From contig OY282373.1 in assembly GCA_958295805.1 (NCBI GenBank), positions 2,451,001 to 2,515,000 on the forward strand: a stretch of DNA of 64,000 nt, read 5' to 3'. The stretch's first letter is position 1; each line of letters begins with the position of its first letter. Source of the stretch: an uncultured Nitrospirales bacterium (GTDB lineage Bacteria; Nitrospirota; Nitrospiria; Nitrospirales; UBA8639). A program made the position numbers and the translations under genes. This document shows, in pieces, positions 4,464 through 13,095 of the stretch. Under the pieces are notes generated by a model. It ran no database searches and had not been told where the DNA came from. It worked only from the letters and a program-made list of their open reading frames with translations.

Positions 4464-4949
4464 ATGATGTATTTCATCACGTGGTGTCTGACGATCTGCT
4501 TGATTCTTGGAGGGAGTACATTTCCGTTTTCAACGTCGTCAGCTTTTTCGAGCCCTCAACCGTCCGGCTTAGCCACGGTGACGACACCAGACGGCTTTAC
4601 GATTTATTCCGAAATAGCCGATACGCCGGGAAAAAGAACCATAGGCCTGATGTATCGAACACACATGGCTCCTGACCACGGGATGTTGTTTCTTTTTACG
4701 GATTCGAAGCGTTGGACGTTCTGGATGAAAAACACAAAAATGGCTTTGGACATCTTATGGTTGGACGAGGAAGCGAAGATCGTTCACGTTGAAACTCACG
4801 TTCCGATTTGCCAAAGAACCGACAATCTCTGCCCACGCTATCGACCGAAAACCCCTGCCGTTCAGGTTCTCGAACTCCGAGCAGGACAAGCGGCCAAACT
4901 GAAGCTGACCCCTGGCGTCAAACTCACCATCGAAATGCCAACGTCATGA
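4464..4949 (+). CDS. Exported DUF192 protein
   Basis: DUF192 proteins are small single-domain proteins of unknown biochemical role, usually exported. The frame is open from 4422, but the ATG at 4464 (MMYFITWCLTICLILGGSTF) begins directly with a hydrophobic signal sequence and is preferred. The mature part shows the DUF192 signatures: TIGLMYRTHMAPDHGMLF, FWMKNTKMALDILWLD and VLELRAGQAAKLKLTPG. Two cysteines lie in the segment CQRTDNLCPRY. It is the only plus-strand gene in the first 49 kb. It converges with relA/spoT with about 21 nt between the stops. Confidence 0.88.
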   Translation: MMYFITWCLTICLILGGSTFPFSTSSAFSSPQPSGLATVTTPDGFTIYSEIADTPGKRTIGLMYRTHMAPDHGMLFLFTDSKRWTFWMKNTKMALDILWLDEEAKIVHVETHVPICQRTDNLCPRYRPKTPAVQVLELRAGQAAKLKLTPGVKLTIEMPTS

Positions 4950-4970
4950 GGCAGAATTCCCCGGTGGGGA

Positions 4971-7163
4971 TCACGAATCTTGCCAACTCCGCACGCGCTT
5001 AGCTGAAATAACCCCTTCCACTCGCCCTATGGCTTCGAGGGTGCGTTCAAGCTGAAGGGTATTGGAAATTTCAATCACAAAATCCTGAACGGCCTTCTGG
5101 TCTTCCCGGGTCGTAATTTCCGCTCGACTGATGTTAGCCTGAGAAGCTGAAATCGCCGAAGAGACGTTGGCCAACACCCCTGGCCGATCAATGGTCAACA
5201 CGCACACCTTGACCGAATGACTTCCTTCAATCGCTGCGTCCCATTCCACGTCCACGAAGCGATCCTTTTCATAATCCAACGCTTCAAGATTCGGACAGCC
5301 CTTCACGTGAATCGTCAACCCTCGGCCACGGGTGATGTATCCCAGAATGGGATCACCCGGCACCGGACCGCAACACTTTGACAACTGCATCAGAACGTCC
5401 CGTCGGCCCATCACCTTGACGGCTTTGACGGATCTCTGCGTCGGCCCTCTTGTTGGCAAAGCCTGGACGTCATTGTCGGCCTTCGCCGAATTCTCGCCGG
5501 GCGACGCCATCCAGGTAACCACTTGAGCCGCGGACAGCCGACCATAGCCGACCATCCTGGTCATGTCATCGACGGATTCATAGCCTTTCCCACTCGCAAC
5601 GGTGGACAACTGCCCCGATTTGAACAACTGCGCAGCCGGGAAATGATGTCGACGAAGTTCACGTTCGAGCAATCGGCGGCCCAATTCCAACCCTTGCCGT
5701 TGCTCTTCAACTTTCAAGAAGTGTTTGATTTTCGCTTTTGCACGGGACGTCCGAACAAACATCAACCACTCTTTTTTAGGCGCCTGGGTGGCCGACGTCA
5801 GAATCTCGACGGTATCGCCGTTGGTTAAGGGTTGACGAAGCGGAACAATCTTCCCGCTGACTTTCGCCCCCACGCAATGATCACCGACTTCCGTATGGAT
5901 CGCATAGGCAAAATCCACCGACGTGGAACCTTGAGGGAGTTCCTTGACCTCTCCCTTCGGCGTAAAGGCAAACACCACGTCTTGAAAGACGTCCAGATGA
6001 AAAAGATCCAACTTGACGGAATCCATGAACTGGCGATTATCAGAAAGGTCTTTGTGCCATTCCACCAGTTGCCGAAGCCAACTGAAGACGTGTTTATCGC
6101 GTTCGCCGACTTTTCCGTGTTCTTTATAGCGCCAATGCGCCGCGACCCCGTATTCCGCCAGACGGTGCATGTCTTCGGTGCGTATCTGAAATTCCACGTG
6201 GTCGCCTTGAGGACCCAACACCGTGGTGTGCAACGATTGGTACAGATTCGTTCGAGGCGTCGCGATGTAATCCTTAAACCGCCCGGGCACCGGCACCCAT
6301 AACGAATGCACGAGGCCGAGAATGGTATAACAGTTCATTGACCCGTCGGTAATGATACGAATGGCCGCCAGATCGTGAACTTCCTCAAACAGGATGTCCT
6401 GGCGCTCCATCTTTTGATGAATGGAATACAGATGTTTAGGCCGTCCTTCCACCTCGCCGGGCAACCCGGCTTTCGCTAAGGCCTTGACGGTTTCCCGAAT
6501 AAGCGACTGGACGTATTCCTGCCGTTCTTCATCTCGTTTCGCGACGCGGAGTTTCAATAAGGAATAGGCTTCCGGCTTGAGATATTCAAAACATAAATTT
6601 TCCAGTTCCTGCGTCATCCAACTCATTCCCAGACGATTGGCCAACGGCGCGTAAATTTCCAACGTTTCCTGGGCGATCTGTTTCTGTTTGTTCTCCGGTA
6701 AATGCCCCAACGTTCTCATGTTATGAAGACGGTCGGCCAATTTGATAAACACCACGCGGATATCATCGGCCATTGACAAAAGCATCTTCCGAAAATTTTC
6801 CGCCTGTTTTTCTTCATACGTTCGGAAAGAAATCTGGCCGATTTTCGTGACGCCTTCCACCAGGTGAGCCACCTCATGTCCGAAGTGCCTCCGCAGCTCG
6901 TCCTGCGTTGCCACGGTGTCTTCCAAGGTGTCGTGCAGCAGCCCCGCCATGATGGCGGTCACGTCCAGTTTAAGAAAAGCGAGAATCCCGGCCACGGCCA
7001 GAGGATGTTGCAAGTAAGGTTCACCGGACCGACGGGTTTGACCTTGATGCGCCTTCGCCGAAAAATCATACGCTCGACGGAGCAAGGCCTCATCAGCCTC
7101 CGGATGGAAGCCGTGAACTTGCTGAATGAGTTCATCAATCTCTATGACACGCGATAACGCCAT
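4971..7163 (-). CDS. Bifunctional (p)ppGpp synthetase/hydrolase, RelA/SpoT family
   Basis: The enzyme makes and degrades the alarmone (p)ppGpp in the stringent response. The 730-residue product has the full long-RSH architecture. An HD hydrolase domain carries HDTLED at residues 77-82. The synthetase domain carries RFKD at 295-298 and the conserved TNLYQSLHTTV. A TGS domain lies near 390-455, a conserved-cysteine region with SKCCGPVPGDPI near 610, and a C-terminal ACT domain ends at the C-terminus. HDxxED together with the RxKD-type (not ExDD) motif marks the bifunctional class, so this is probably the only long RSH. Its ATG at 7163 lies inside the last codons of recJ, a 29-nt overlap that suggests translational coupling. 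Confidence 0.96.
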   Translation of the reverse strand: MALSRVIEIDELIQQVHGFHPEADEALLRRAYDFSAKAHQGQTRRSGEPYLQHPLAVAGILAFLKLDVTAIMAGLLHDTLEDTVATQDELRRHFGHEVAHLVEGVTKIGQISFRTYEEKQAENFRKMLLSMADDIRVVFIKLADRLHNMRTLGHLPENKQKQIAQETLEIYAPLANRLGMSWMTQELENLCFEYLKPEAYSLLKLRVAKRDEERQEYVQSLIRETVKALAKAGLPGEVEGRPKHLYSIHQKMERQDILFEEVHDLAAIRIITDGSMNCYTILGLVHSLWVPVPGRFKDYIATPRTNLYQSLHTTVLGPQGDHVEFQIRTEDMHRLAEYGVAAHWRYKEHGKVGERDKHVFSWLRQLVEWHKDLSDNRQFMDSVKLDLFHLDVFQDVVFAFTPKGEVKELPQGSTSVDFAYAIHTEVGDHCVGAKVSGKIVPLRQPLTNGDTVEILTSATQAPKKEWLMFVRTSRAKAKIKHFLKVEEQRQGLELGRRLLERELRRHHFPAAQLFKSGQLSTVASGKGYESVDDMTRMVGYGRLSAAQVVTWMASPGENSAKADNDVQALPTRGPTQRSVKAVKVMGRRDVLMQLSKCCGPVPGDPILGYITRGRGLTIHVKGCPNLEALDYEKDRFVDVEWDAAIEGSHSVKVCVLTIDRPGVLANVSSAISASQANISRAEITTREDQKAVQDFVIEISNTLQLERTLEAIGRVEGVISAKRVRSWQDS

Positions 7164-8874
7164 CCTCTTCTTTCTCCACGTCGCTCATTCGCACGTCACA
7201 CAACCGCAGTTGGATGCGATGATATCCCTTCCAGTGGTTCAACTCCGGACTGAACACGGCATCAACCCGACCATGACCCGCATCAAGGGCGTCCGCGAAT
7301 CCTCCCATCCGAAACCCGATGCCGTCCAGGGGCATGGAGTGATCCTGACGAACCACCAATTTCAAATGATCGTCTCCCACGACCCTTTTCTCCAACACCG
7401 CCAGCCCTTTACTGAGAAAGGTAGGCTCAGGGTTGCCCATCCCAAAGGGCTGCAACCGTTCCAACTCCTGGAGCAGAGGCAACCGAATTTGAGAAAGCGA
7501 AACGTCAGCATCCACCTCCAACGTCGGCACCTTCATCTTCGCGTCAATCAATCTCTCGGCCACGTCAACAAATTTCTGACGAAAATCAGAAAACGCTGCT
7601 TTTCTCAAGGTGACGCCGGCCGCCATCGGATGTCCGCCGAAAGCCACGAGGAAGGAACGGCATTCGGCCAAGGCTTGACACACGTCGAAACCGGGAATCC
7701 CTCTTGCCGACCCTTTGCCTTGACCCCGTTGATCGAACGCGACCACGATCGCGGGACGGTGATAGCGTTCCACCAGCCGTGCAGCGACAATGCCCAGCAC
7801 GCCGACGTGCCACCCATCGGCGCCAACGACGATCGCGGGTGGGAGTTCGCCGGCGTCCACCTGCGTCACGGCCTCTCGAGTAATATCCTGTTCAATCCGT
7901 CGTCGTTGGAGATTCAATTCCGTGAGCCGTTGCACCAAGTCAAGGGCCACGGCTTCAGAATCCGTGGTGAGCAATTCCACGCCAAGCCCGGCATGAGCTA
8001 ATCGTCCAGCCGCATTGAGGAGGGGCGCCACACGAAACCCAACCGTGCTTGCCGACCACGGACCGTTGAGATCCAGGCACTGCTTCAACGCGCGAATGCC
8101 GCACCGCGTCCCCTGAGTCATCTGAGCCAGCCCATCTTTCACCAAGACCCGGTTTTCGTCTCGAAGCGGAACGACGTCGGCGATAGAGGACAGCGCAACG
8201 AGATCACGAAACGTCTCAATCGGCGCCCCGGGGGCACCGAACTTGCGTGCGTAGGCTTCGACCACCTTGTAGGCCAAGGCTCCCGAACACAAACCCTGGA
8301 AAGGGTAACGGGAATCCGGACGGTAGGGATTGATAAACGCCAACGGTCGCGGAACCGGTGATTGGATCTGATGATGATCGGTGACAATGACCTCAATGCC
8401 CAAGCGGCCGGCCAACTCGATTTCGTGATGGGAAGTCGTTCCACAATCCGCCGTGACCAAAACGGAAACGCCCTTCTCGGCTAATCGTCGAATGGCCGCT
8501 TCATTCAGACCATACCCTTCCTCTTGTCGATGAGGGATATAGCCTTCAGCCTTGGCCCCGACGCTTCTCCAGAAGAGCAGGTGAAGACTCGTGGCAGACA
8601 TACCGTCAACGTCATAGTCTCCGTAAAAGCAAACACGTTCACCGCGTTGGATGGCCAGATGAAGCCGGTCAATAGCCGGCTCCACGTCAGGCAAGAGAAA
8701 GGGGTCATGGGTCAAGCCGCCGGAAGGCGAGAGCCAGCCTCTGGCCTGCTCAGTCTCGACGGCACCTCTTCCCCATAACACCGTCGCCGTAAGGGGAGAG
8801 ACGGCCAAGACGCGAGCGAGGGCATCCACCTGCTCCTGATCAATCGAGCGGACCTTCCAAATCTTCTGAAGCAT
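7135..8874 (-). CDS. recJ: Single-stranded-DNA-specific exonuclease RecJ
   Basis: RecJ is a 5'-3' exonuclease on single-stranded DNA that acts in recombination and mismatch repair. The 579-residue protein shows the DHH-family motifs in order: GDYDVDG near residue 85, TADCGT, VTDHHQ, and the SSIADVVPL segment. The DHHA1 part follows with GWHVGVLGIVAARLVERY, SARGI and FGGHPMAAG, then the C-terminal OB domain (LQPFGMGNPEPTFLSKGL). Length is normal for the family. Its 3' end overlaps relA/spoT by 29 nt on the same strand. A Pup-like gene lies 216 nt upstream. Confidence 0.95.
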   Translation of the reverse strand: MLQKIWKVRSIDQEQVDALARVLAVSPLTATVLWGRGAVETEQARGWLSPSGGLTHDPFLLPDVEPAIDRLHLAIQRGERVCFYGDYDVDGMSATSLHLLFWRSVGAKAEGYIPHRQEEGYGLNEAAIRRLAEKGVSVLVTADCGTTSHHEIELAGRLGIEVIVTDHHQIQSPVPRPLAFINPYRPDSRYPFQGLCSGALAYKVVEAYARKFGAPGAPIETFRDLVALSSIADVVPLRDENRVLVKDGLAQMTQGTRCGIRALKQCLDLNGPWSASTVGFRVAPLLNAAGRLAHAGLGVELLTTDSEAVALDLVQRLTELNLQRRRIEQDITREAVTQVDAGELPPAIVVGADGWHVGVLGIVAARLVERYHRPAIVVAFDQRGQGKGSARGIPGFDVCQALAECRSFLVAFGGHPMAAGVTLRKAAFSDFRQKFVDVAERLIDAKMKVPTLEVDADVSLSQIRLPLLQELERLQPFGMGNPEPTFLSKGLAVLEKRVVGDDHLKLVVRQDHSMPLDGIGFRMGGFADALDAGHGRVDAVFSPELNHWKGYHRIQLRLCDVRMSDVEKEEDGVIACHRD

Positions 8875-9090
8875 CTCGTACCTGGAGAGCCCCCGATGGG
8901 CTTACGTATGGATCACCGCAAACGGAAAGGATCATAGAAACTGATCCGAAGAGTGTCAAACCGCAAGGCACAAACGATACCGCGTCCATCTGGACGATGG
9001 ACGTGATCGAACCTGATACGTTTCTGATACGGCTGGATGAAGACGAAAAAGGAATGAACGGCGAAACAAGCGAGATAAAAGAACGAGGAG

Positions 9091-9309
9091 TTACTCCCCT
9101 CCTTTTTGCACGTTATTCTTTACAAATTCGGCGGCATTTTCTTTCACGGCATTTTCTCCCAGGGCTTTATCGATCTCCTCAACTAAATGATCAATATCCT
9201 CTTGAAGTTTCTTTCCCGTTTCGATCACTTTTGGATTCGGCGTGACGTCCTGATGCTCAGAGGGGGAGGGACTTTTTGCTGATCTGGGCTTACGTTCCTG
9301 CCGTTCCAT
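9091..9309 (-). CDS. pup: Pup-like (prokaryotic ubiquitin-like) protein
   Basis: Pup is a small, largely disordered modifier ligated by PafA through its C-terminal glutamate to lysines of target proteins, which then go to the Mpa/ARC-proteasome. The 72-residue product is acidic and charged. Its C-terminal half is helix-forming (LVEEIDKALGENAVKENAAE) and it ends FVKNNVQKGGE, matching the Pup consensus end (EEFVxxxVQKGGQ/E). The final residue is already Glu, so deamidation by Dop would not be needed for ligation. The start is ATG 9307-9309, with AGAGAGG six nt upstream; a TTG six nt further upstream is less likely. No proteasome, PafA, Dop or ARC gene lies in the window. The alternative Ub-like UBact family ends differently (SGE/SGQ). 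Confidence 0.82.
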   Translation of the reverse strand: MERQERKPRSAKSPSPSEHQDVTPNPKVIETGKKLQEDIDHLVEEIDKALGENAVKENAAEFVKNNVQKGGE

Positions 9310-9443
9310 CGGCAACCTCTCTCATGTCCTCGCCATCGTCTAGAGACCTTGATACCTTGAATACCCGCCACAATAACGAACCCCCCTCAAACCGTCAACC
9401 GCCTCTCCCTTTTTCCCTTCCCCTGAAGGAAAACTTTGCAACA

Positions 9444-9483
9444 TGTCATTCTGAGCAAAGAAATGTCATTCTGAGCGAAGCAA
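9444..9483. repeat. Tandem pair of GTCATTCTGAGC-type 20-mers
   Basis: Two adjacent 20-bp copies begin TGTCATTCTGAGC at 9444 and 9464 and differ at a few positions. They continue into AGAATCT, the form of a dispersed intergenic repeat seen in many genomes. They lie between hppA and the Pup-like gene. A diverged inverted copy is found at 11742-11766. The rest of 9310-9556 holds no gene that I can support. Confidence 0.7.
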
Positions 9484-9556
9484 AGAATCTAAGCCCCAGC
9501 GACAGAGGGCCAGAGCCTGCCCTCCGAAAGGGGAGTGAGGGGACAAGTCAAAAACC

Positions 9557-11620
9557 TCACTGCACAAGCAGCGAAATAATCATCAACGCCACGATGTTAA
9601 TGACTTTAATCATCGGGTTAATCGCCGGACCAGCCGTATCCTTAAAAGGATCACCGACCGTATCACCGGTCACCGCCGCTTTGTGGGTTTCCGTCCCTTT
9701 GAGTCCCTGTTCCTCAATGTACTTTTTGGCATTATCCCAGGCCCCGCCGCCGCTGGTCATCGTAATCGCCAAAAACAAACCGGTCACAATACTGCCGACC
9801 AGCACGCCCCCCAAGGCAGCCGGTCCTAAAATCACTCCAACCAGAATGGGAGAGACCACGGGAATCATGCCGGGAATCAACATTTTTTGAAGGGCGGCTT
9901 GAGTCACGATGTCGACACACGTCCCGTATTCCGGTTTGCTCGTTCCCTCCATGATGCCGGGGATCTCACGGAATTGCCGACGCACTTCCTCCACAACCAA
10001 GCCTCCGGCCTGGCCGACGGCCTTCATACACAACGCCCCGAAGATAAACGGAAGCATACCGCCAAGAAACAACCCCACCAGGACGTTGGGATCGGACAGA
10101 TCAAAGCTCAGCGTCTGGTTTCCGGCGCGAGCCGCTCGCGCATATTCCGCAAACAACACCAACGCGGCCAACGCGGCCGACCCAATGGCATAGCCTTTGG
10201 TGACGGCCTTGGTCGTATTGCCGACCGCGTCAAGCGCATCCGTGATTTTTCGAACGTCCGGGCCCAATTGCGCCATTTCGGCAATGCCCCCTCCGTTATC
10301 AGTCACCGGACCAAACGCATCAATCGCCACCACGATGCCGGCCATGGACAACATGGATACCGCGGCAATCGCAACGCCGTACAGGCCCCCGGCGTCACTC
10401 CCCCCGCAAATCGCAAAACTCGAAAGAATCGCCGCCACAATGACGATCACCGGCCACGCGGTGGACTGCATACCCACGGCCAACCCGGCAATAATATTGG
10501 TCGCATGTCCCGTTTCACTGGCCTTGACCACCTCCTGAACCGGCGAATAATTGGTAGCCGTGAAATAATCGGTAATGAGCACGAGGGCCAGAGTCACCAC
10601 GAGGCCCAGCAAAGCTGCAATGAAATAATTGACTCCTGACACGCCCCCAATGCCGTCCATCATCATGGTCGTCACCGGGAAAAAAGCGACGGCGGCGAGT
10701 CCTCCGCTGACGAACAACCCTTTATACAACGCCGACATAATGCTCCCGTCACCGGCCTTCACAAAGAACGTCCCGATAATGGTCGCAAAGACGGTCATTC
10801 CTCCAAGTACCAAGGGATACAGCACGGGGGCAGAGGTTCCAGGGAAGAGACTCATGGCCAACACCATCGCGGCAACAATCGTCACGACGTAGGTCTCAAA
10901 CAGATCGGCCGCCATACCCGCACAGTCACCGACGTTATCACCGACGTTGTCCGCAATCACCGCGGGATTGCGTGGGTCATCTTCAGGGATCCCGGCTTCA
11001 ACCTTCCCGACGAGGTCGGCTCCCACGTCCGCGGCCTTGGTATAAATGCCGCCCCCGACCCTGGCAAAGACCGAAATAAGACTGCCGCCGAACCCGAGGC
11101 TGATCAAGGCATGGACCGCTTGTTCCCGTCCGGCGACCGCGGAACCGATTGCATAAAAACCGGCCAGGGCCACGAGTCCCAACCCGATTAACAGCAAGCC
11201 GGTGACCGCTCCACCCTTAAAGGCCACGTTCAGGGCCGGATCTAACCCGAGCGACGCAGCATGCGCCGTTCGAACGTTGGCGCGTACGGCGATAACCATA
11301 CCGACGTAGCCGGCAGTCGCGGAGGCCGTGGCACCCACAAGAAACCCGACCGCCGTCAAGAGTCCGAAATGGTCCGACCAGAACCCGGCAAGCCACAAAA
11401 TCAAGAACATGACGCCGGCCACAAGACCGACGGCCCGATATTGTCGGTTCAAGTAGGCGGATGCGCCTTCCTGAATGGCCAACGCAATGGATTGCATCGT
11501 TTCGTTTCCGGCCTCCTGCCGAAGCACCCAAAAGGTGAGATACAACCCATAGAGAATGCCGGCGACGCCGGACCCTAACGCAAAGATGATGACCGAAATC
11601 TCACTATTCACGGATGTCAC
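9557..11620 (-). CDS. hppA: K+-independent proton-translocating membrane pyrophosphatase
   Basis: The enzyme couples cytoplasmic PPi hydrolysis to proton export across the inner membrane. The 687-residue product is highly hydrophobic and of family length. Its PPi-binding motifs include [41 protein letters not shown], and the late [20 protein letters not shown]. The discriminating segment reads GNTTKA. Lysine at that position is known to replace the K+ requirement, and the K+-independent family consists of H+ pumps rather than Na+ pumps. The start is GTG 11620, with GGAGGAGG very close upstream; the next in-frame GTG (11611) would have better spacing. Confidence 0.95.
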
Positions 11621-11741
11621 CCCTCCTCCTTAAACAAAAAACACGCCCTCATGCACACACAAAAAAGTCACCCATGATAGCCGTCAGAATTCCAATTTTC
11701 AACAACCTGAATCAGTGAGACCCTCTGAGACCGTGAGATTC

Positions 11742-11766
11742 GATCCTTCATTTCGCTCAGGATGAC
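11742..11766. repeat. Diverged GTCATCCTGAGCGAA repeat in the hppA/giant-gene gap
   Basis: Read on the minus strand the site contains GTCATCCTGAGCGAAATG followed by AAGGATC, an inverted and diverged relative of the pair at 9444-9483. It lies in the 332-bp gap 11621-11952. A further degenerate palindromic stretch near 11813-11836 (CTCCCTTGACGGAAGAGGG) resembles the palindrome at 13200-13220. I see no gene and no convincing terminator in this gap. Confidence 0.55.
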
Positions 11767-11952
11767 CTTTTCGCAAAGGTCTCTTAACGGAAGAAATCTC
11801 TTGACTCTTTCCCGCTCCCTTGACGGAAGAGGGCAACGTGAAGGTAGGGTTCCAGGGGTTGCTTCTCGTACTCTTGATTCCAACAGAAAGAATGGACACC
11901 CCACTGGCTCCAGCAGCAAATGACTGAACGTTTACAGGAATGACGAAAACGG

Positions 11953-13095
11953 CTACTGCAGCCAGTCGAGGCGGAAGGTTATGCCGTGCGTGGCGGCTTG
12001 ACCGGCTTGCTTCGTTTGCTCGCCTTCCAGACTCAGGGTCAGGAAAGAGGTCAGCTCCAATCTGCCGCCGAGTCGGTACCGGGACGCGCCAGCCCCCTCA
12101 ATGGCCAAGCCGCCATACGGCGTCACCAAGCCCCGTCCTTCAGACAGCGCCAGCCCATACCCGACGTCCACCGCAAACTGCTGCGGCTGCCACCCAGGCG
12201 TCCCAGACCGTGGTCCACCGCCAACTCCCTCTACGATCGCGCTGGGGCTGCCCCAGATCTGTTCAACCCCGCTCGCCGCCTGGCCCCACACCGGCGCCAC
12301 CGTCAGATACGCCCCCTGACCCGCGACTCCGGGATCAAGCCGCACGTTCAGACTCGCTCCCCAGTCTTCAAAGGAGCCGTCTTCGTGCGCCATCAGATAC
12401 CGCCCCTGCGCCTCCACGCTCAGCCCCCACGTCGTCTGCGTATAGGCCAAGCCACCGCCGATTTCGGCCCCCAGCCCTTGTTCCGCAGTTCCGCTGTCCC
12501 ATCGCCCGCCAAGCTCAAGCCGAGGTTGCATCTGCGACTCCGCGGACAGCATCCATTCCGTCCGGCCTTCGACCAGCAACCGTACTCGCTCCGCATGTCC
12601 CCGCGCTCCCGGCAGGTTCGTCGTGCCCGCGGAACGCAGCGTCGTCAGGAACGCATCCGTCTTCGCTGCCAAGTCAATCCCCTGCCACGTGGTCAAAGCT
12701 TGCCGCCCCCCGACGGCACCCATCAGCGACGTCAGATCCGTCGTCCGCGTTCGGCCCGCGTCTCCGGCAAGCTTGACCGCCATTTTGCCCCAACCCGCGC
12801 CCAGCATGCTCCACACCCCCAGGTCGGGGCTCGGGTGCCAGTGCGCATACGGCAACACGCTCGTCAATTCTACGTCCACGCCGACCTTCTCGGACGCCTC
12901 GGTTCGCTCGTAGTTGACGGCGCCGGTGCTGTGGACCACCCCCAGCCCCATCAGCACCGTCGGCTTGGGTCGGTAATCCAGCCCCACGTAGCCGCTGTAG
13001 AGCGTCCCATCCATCTTGAAGTCGTCCACGGGCTGGCCGGAGAAGCCGCTAGCTGAGCCTCGGCCCCACAGGGTCCAAGCTGGGACACCGTCTTC
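11953..13095 (-). other. Autotransporter-like C-terminal beta-barrel domain
   Basis: The last ~380 residues begin PAWTLWGRGSASGFSG and show alternating aromatic/hydrophobic strands with polar turns: LYSGYVGLDYRPKPTVLMG, VLPYAHWHPSPDLGVW, LVEGRTEWMLSAESQM, and VTPYGGLAIEGAGASRYRLG. This is the pattern of the autotransporter beta-domain that forms an outer-membrane pore for a type V secreted passenger. The final strand reads HGITFRLDWLQ. The terminal Gln after Trp-Leu is unusual, because these barrels normally end in Phe or Trp. Confidence 0.78.

Follow-up and report, generated by a model that had tools for sequence, protein, structure and literature searches.

Bacterial proteins destined for the proteasome are marked with Pup, a small tag. 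In the genome of an uncultured Nitrospirales bacterium, a gene for such a tag stands between recJ and the gene of a membrane proton pyrophosphatase, away from the proteasome genes, an arrangement which the first-pass annotation had pointed out and which the ORF and Pfam calls bear out. The locus raises the questions of whether the gene encodes a genuine Pup, which enzymes it serves and how it came to lie where it does. The window, that is, the whole stretch of 64,000 nucleotides analysed, corresponds to positions 2451001–2515000 of the source contig, a single contig of 2,904,372 bases (2.90 Mb) that represents a 99.85% complete genome. The organism is one of the relatives of Nitrospira, and its family is probably UBA8639 (lineage IV), judging in part by the account of the order Nitrospirales in PMC12342949.

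A genuine Pup gene and its surroundings

The pup ORF encodes a real Pup (Table 1). The complete product, MERQERKPRSAKSPSPSEHQDVTPNPKVIETGKKLQEDIDHLVEEIDKALGENAVKENAAEFVKNNVQKGGE, begins with MERQERK and ends with FVKNNVQKGGE, and with its 72 residues and terminal KGGE it carries the Pup signature of 50–90 residues and a C-terminal G[EQ] (PMC2588565). A ribosome-binding site, GAGAGAGG, is found a few bases 5' of the ATG. The product matches the Pfam profile PF05639 with 46.6 bits against a cut-off of 27 (E = 6.9e-12), and its best PDB matches are solved Pup structures or chains, in agreement with the earlier proposal of a Pup-like modifier with a terminal Glu. As for the profile thresholds on which that proposal had been made to depend, the one of Pfam was passed, but the one of the NCBIfam C-terminal equivalog domain TIGR03687 was missed (30.3 bits against a cut-off of 41.45, compared with 54.5 and 59.9 for two congener Pups), owing to an insertion and changes in the C-terminal core described below.

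Table 1. Coordinates of pup and nearby features in the window.
Feature	Position	Strand	Remarks
relA/spoT	4971..7163	(-)	conserved neighbour beyond recJ
recJ	7135..8874	(-)	conserved downstream neighbour of pup
candidate recJ promoter	8931..8959	(-)	TTGACA-17-TATGAT (11 of 12); downstream of pup
terminator-like hairpin	9085..9103	(-)	weak; end of pup
pup	9091..9309	(-)	ORF, 72 aa (72 codons, ATG at 9309, TAA ending at 9091); terminal GGE; Pfam PF05639; only Pup gene of the genome
codon AAC (Asn)	9109..9111	(-)	in FVKNNVQKGGE; counted back from stop codon 9091–9093
15-bp tandem duplication in pup	9132..9161	(-)	two copies, 87% identical; encodes ENAVK-ENAAE
candidate sigma-70 promoter of pup	9370..9398	(-)	TTGACG-17-TATTGT; place and spacing match congener sites
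hppA, membrane H+-pyrophosphatase	9557..11620	(-)	conserved upstream neighbour of pup

Most members of the genus that were read, including G027, carry TTGACC-17-TATCCT or TATTCT about 50–60 bases 5' of the pup ATG, the spacing from promoter to ATG being short and variable among congeners. These promoter sites are matches to a consensus, but as the one before pup recurs in most of the genus, it speaks for a transcription unit of its own, and pup is probably transcribed alone in the window's genus. A terminator-like hairpin also follows hppA. No RNA element was found near pup in an Rfam search of positions 4800–12000. In two congeners (L090 and L027), imperfect GATTGTGGATTGC / CAGCAATCCACAATTCC repeat runs lie directly 5' of the pup start, at the place which the conserved promoter takes in other congeners. 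Between pup and hppA, window positions 9440–9530 contain repeated TGTCATTCTGAGC(A/G)AAG(A/C) motifs resembling a dispersed intergenic repeat. Over half of the window is taken up by a single open frame that runs for 12,360 codons (11953–49035, minus strand, 37 kb). Putative Ig (He_PIG), Calx-beta and PKD-like domains recur in it and suggest a giant surface or adhesin-like protein, the final residues of which, by eye, resemble an outer-membrane barrel.

One Pup and a complete pathway encoded elsewhere

To account for the isolated gene, the first-pass annotation had offered two possibilities, namely, that the pupylation genes lie elsewhere in the genome or that this is a second, separated copy. 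The former proved correct: the genome search for pafA, dop, mpa/arc and prcA/prcB found all of these, so that the ligase is not missing, and PafA, Dop, Mpa/ARC and a 20S proteasome are all encoded. The two Pup-ligase family genes cluster with prcA and prcB in the order thiS-thiG-thiE-mpa-dop-prcB-prcA-pafA, with no pup inside (region 2342258–2350027 of the source contig, locus L007), and the near end of this cluster is about 112 kb from pup. Every product scores above its NCBIfam equivalog cut-off: PafA with 560.8 bits (cut-off 551.3), Dop with 540.0 (492.3), Mpa with 734.3 (504.75), PrcA with 290.9 (139.05) and PrcB with 295.3 (191.9). By eye, the DxGxHPEY/DGAHPEY segment is retained in PafA and Dop, and the last residues of Mpa are GHYV, in which Tyr is the penultimate one. 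A third proteasome-fold match, considered as an extra proteasome subunit, was ruled out, being HslV adjoining HslU. The cluster directly follows thiS-thiG-thiE on the same strand, and elsewhere in the family, too, thiG-thiE stand ahead of mpa.

The possibility of a second copy was not borne out. Both the search with the Pup HMM and that with the normal Pup of a congener as the query returned a single gene, which rules out another Pup in this genome, and dop ends only 36 bases ahead of the prcB ORF, so that pup is missing from its usual place between the two.

Some relatives possess another small modifier, for which UBact is the NCBIfam name (NF033388). It is present as a second system in 29 of the 49 genomes of the family: its gene is flanked by another pair of Dop-like and PafA-like enzyme genes, and separate PrcA/PrcB-like subunits and an ATPase resembling Mpa complete this proteasome-type system (for example, at L081, G028:C1:3575000-3590000, and at L088, G020). 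Leptospirillum ferrooxidans is a known case of a Nitrospirae member with two systems (PMC3511204). Like Pup, UBact is a small modifier that accompanies enzymes of the PafA/Dop type and a proteasome, but its gene, unlike the displaced pup, adjoins its own enzymes. The window Pup matched only TIGR03687 and not NF033388, and neither UBact nor, as far as found, a second enzyme pair was present in the source genome and 13 sampled congeners. Replacement or accompaniment of Pup by UBact in the source genome was accordingly rejected, given that there is no match to a model which works in 29 members of the family.

Probable displacement of pup at the base of the order

According to a 2008 survey, pup is invariably adjacent to a PafA gene (PMC2588565); here the two are separated, as they are throughout the order. 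Mycobacterium tuberculosis (pup-prcB-prcA-pafA, with dop and mpa) shares with the present genome a Pup family protein with C-terminal GG[E/Q] and the presence of PafA, Dop, Mpa and PrcA/PrcB, but its pup lies upstream of prcB rather than at a distance of about 112 kb, and encodes a terminal Gln instead of Glu. Other Nitrospirota, including Leptospirillum (mpa-dop-pup-prcB-prcA-pafA; PMC3511204), have the same gene order apart from pup, as well as homologous Dop, PafA and PrcAB; their pup sits between dop and prcB, in the gap that is empty in Nitrospirales.

The displaced position is not peculiar to the source genome but is common to the whole order. Exactly one Pup match was obtained in 47 of the 49 genomes of the window's family, all of which encode ligases, and by coordinates no Pup of the family is close to a ligase. 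In the tally of neighbours, pup stands beside recJ or spoT at 36 of 41 family loci and beside a ligase at none, the remaining five loci having no query-gene match in the stretch examined. The other families of the order have hppA upstream and recJ or spoT downstream of pup at all 37 loci. Outside the order but within the phylum, by contrast, pup lies beside dop, prcB/prcA or pafA at 41 of 42 loci (at the 42nd, the query was short and missed Pup itself), and the nearest outgroups, that is, other families of the same class, retain the operon position. In complete genomes of the order, the distance between pup and the nearest ligase, calculated manually from the coordinates, ranges from tens of kb to over 1 Mb. 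It amounts to 45–50 kb in G156, G190, G192 and G228, to 84 kb in G013 and to 129–214 kb in several others, and in G028 and G029 it exceeds 1 Mb.

Since the arrangement hppA>pup>recJ/spoT is order-wide and the operon position prevails outside, the separation is ancestral, and a single departure of pup from the operon, in the Nitrospirales ancestor, is the simplest history. Alternatively, the gene between hppA and recJ might have been acquired independently, by transfer or as an old duplicate, and have replaced the operon copy rather than being that copy moved. In its favour, the shortness of Pup does not permit a reliable tree, and no intermediate with both copies was seen; nevertheless, the Pups of the order and those of the class outgroups are alike, and almost throughout there is one Pup per genome, which makes this course of events unlikely. 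A limited search of open-access papers found no description of pup displacement in Nitrospira: a 2012 review describes the operon position of pup and the Leptospirillum loci (PMC3511204), whereas a 2025 comparative study of Nitrospirales mentions neither the proteasome nor pupylation (PMC12342949).

An altered enzyme-binding end

Alignment of 70 distinct Pups yielded a nearly fixed core, VLExNAxEFVKNYVQKGGE, in which the window Pup alone reads KALGENAVKENAAEFVKNNVQKGGE. The pattern VL..NA..FV..YVQ[KR]GG[EQ] describes 104 of 106 sequences; the window Pup departs from it by an insertion, a V to A change and a Y to N change, and an E to G change also lies, like the V to A change, near the duplication listed in Table 1. 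The duplication adds five residues at the H1-H2 hinge, an insertion absent from every aligned relative and found in none of 11 relatives from the genome collection. The Tyr seven residues from the end, present in 105 of the 106 sequences, is Asn in the window Pup. Together, the hinge insertion and the Tyr to Asn change set the Pup of this species apart from that of M. tuberculosis. The label 'ligation-ready' given in the first-pass annotation accordingly calls for a caveat: the GGE end is in place, but the hinge and the Tyr are altered.

In the PDB alignment to Mycobacterium Pup, the insertion falls right after residue 47. The helices of Pup in complex with PafA span residues 38–47 and 51–58 (PMC5286830), so that the insertion comes to lie at the hinge and the Asn falls where the second helix ends; Pup adopts the same two-helix shape in complex with Dop (PMC8599861), and both changes fall in the PafA/Dop-binding region. 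Pairing with Mpa involves the N-terminal helix, about residues 21–51 (PMC8755798), the C-terminal edge of which is thus touched as well. A different internal repeat, KVVEAGKKL twice, occurs in the Mpa-binding part of another Nitrospirales Pup (L102, G259), indicating that Pup tolerates tandem duplications elsewhere too.

A probably working but derived tag

All the alterations lie in the enzyme-binding end, at positions otherwise fixed across the phylum, and the genome-search profile score of the window Pup (43.1 bits) is the lowest of all genomes searched, the others scoring about 67 to 83. These features would be expected if the altered Pup were losing its function, with pupylation weakened or lost in the species and the ligase and proteasome genes not yet decayed. 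Such a loss is nonetheless improbable. The frame is open, the start, ribosome-binding site and promoter are intact, and F, VQKGGE and the acidic first helix are retained. Comparison with the congener G008 gave a dN of 0.12 and a dS of 1.13, a low ratio that shows no sign of decay and is not the pattern of a pseudogene, bearing in mind that dN/dS averages over the shared history and is blind to very recent loss, and that dS is near saturation. PafA, Dop, Mpa, PrcA and PrcB of the source genome are intact and not accelerated, without any excess of unusual changes. The idea that PafA, Dop or Mpa carries compensating changes was rejected on the same counts, which give no signal of coevolution, and no change in PafA or Dop matching the alterations of Pup was identified.

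Since ligase, depupylase and proteasome all remain intact, the altered Pup most likely continues to be used, and we favour the reading that it is working but derived. An artefactual origin of the duplication and of the Tyr to Asn change by sequencing or assembly error, with an ordinary displaced Pup in the organism, is highly improbable even though both are found in a single genome, the only one available for the species, since there are two differences between the 15-bp copies, the reading frame is preserved and V to A and E to G changes lie nearby, which is not the pattern of simple base-call errors. Overall, we are confident that the gene is the only Pup of its genome and belongs to a complete Pup-proteasome system, that its enzyme-binding end is derived, and that it was displaced in the ancestor of the order and altered in this species.

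Proposed mechanism and implications

By analogy with actinobacteria, PafA would attach the C-terminal glutamate of Pup to lysines in target proteins, Dop would take Pup off again, and Mpa/ARC would bind it through a coiled coil and thread the tagged protein into PrcAB; with Glu encoded in the gene itself, deamidation by Dop is not needed. As a Pup, the protein would also be expected to be disordered in the free state. In the Nitrospirales ancestor, pup would have moved out of the gap between dop and prcB to its present place next to hppA and recJ, where it probably forms a transcription unit of its own. In the present species, slippage would then have duplicated 15 bp and so extended the hinge that joins the two enzyme-bound helices, and Asn would have replaced the conserved Tyr with which the second helix ends. 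A more doubtful suggestion, which we put forward tentatively, is that the Nitrospirales modifier has been permanently uncoupled from its enzymes for an independent supply of the tag, and that the longer hinge and changed second helix in this species alter the sharing of Pup among PafA, Dop and Mpa. If so, the altered Pup could, for instance, shift the balance between ligation, removal and degradation.

A whole order of ecologically central nitrifiers, which are nitrite-oxidising bacteria, breaks the stated rule of adjacency between pup and the PafA gene, and searches for pup that are confined to the proteasome operon would consequently miss that of Nitrospirales. The genomes of the order represent a natural test of whether co-transcription of the tag with its enzymes matters, and the Pup of this species provides natural variation at two sites, namely, in the hinge bound by PafA and Dop and at a Tyr which every relative read has conserved.
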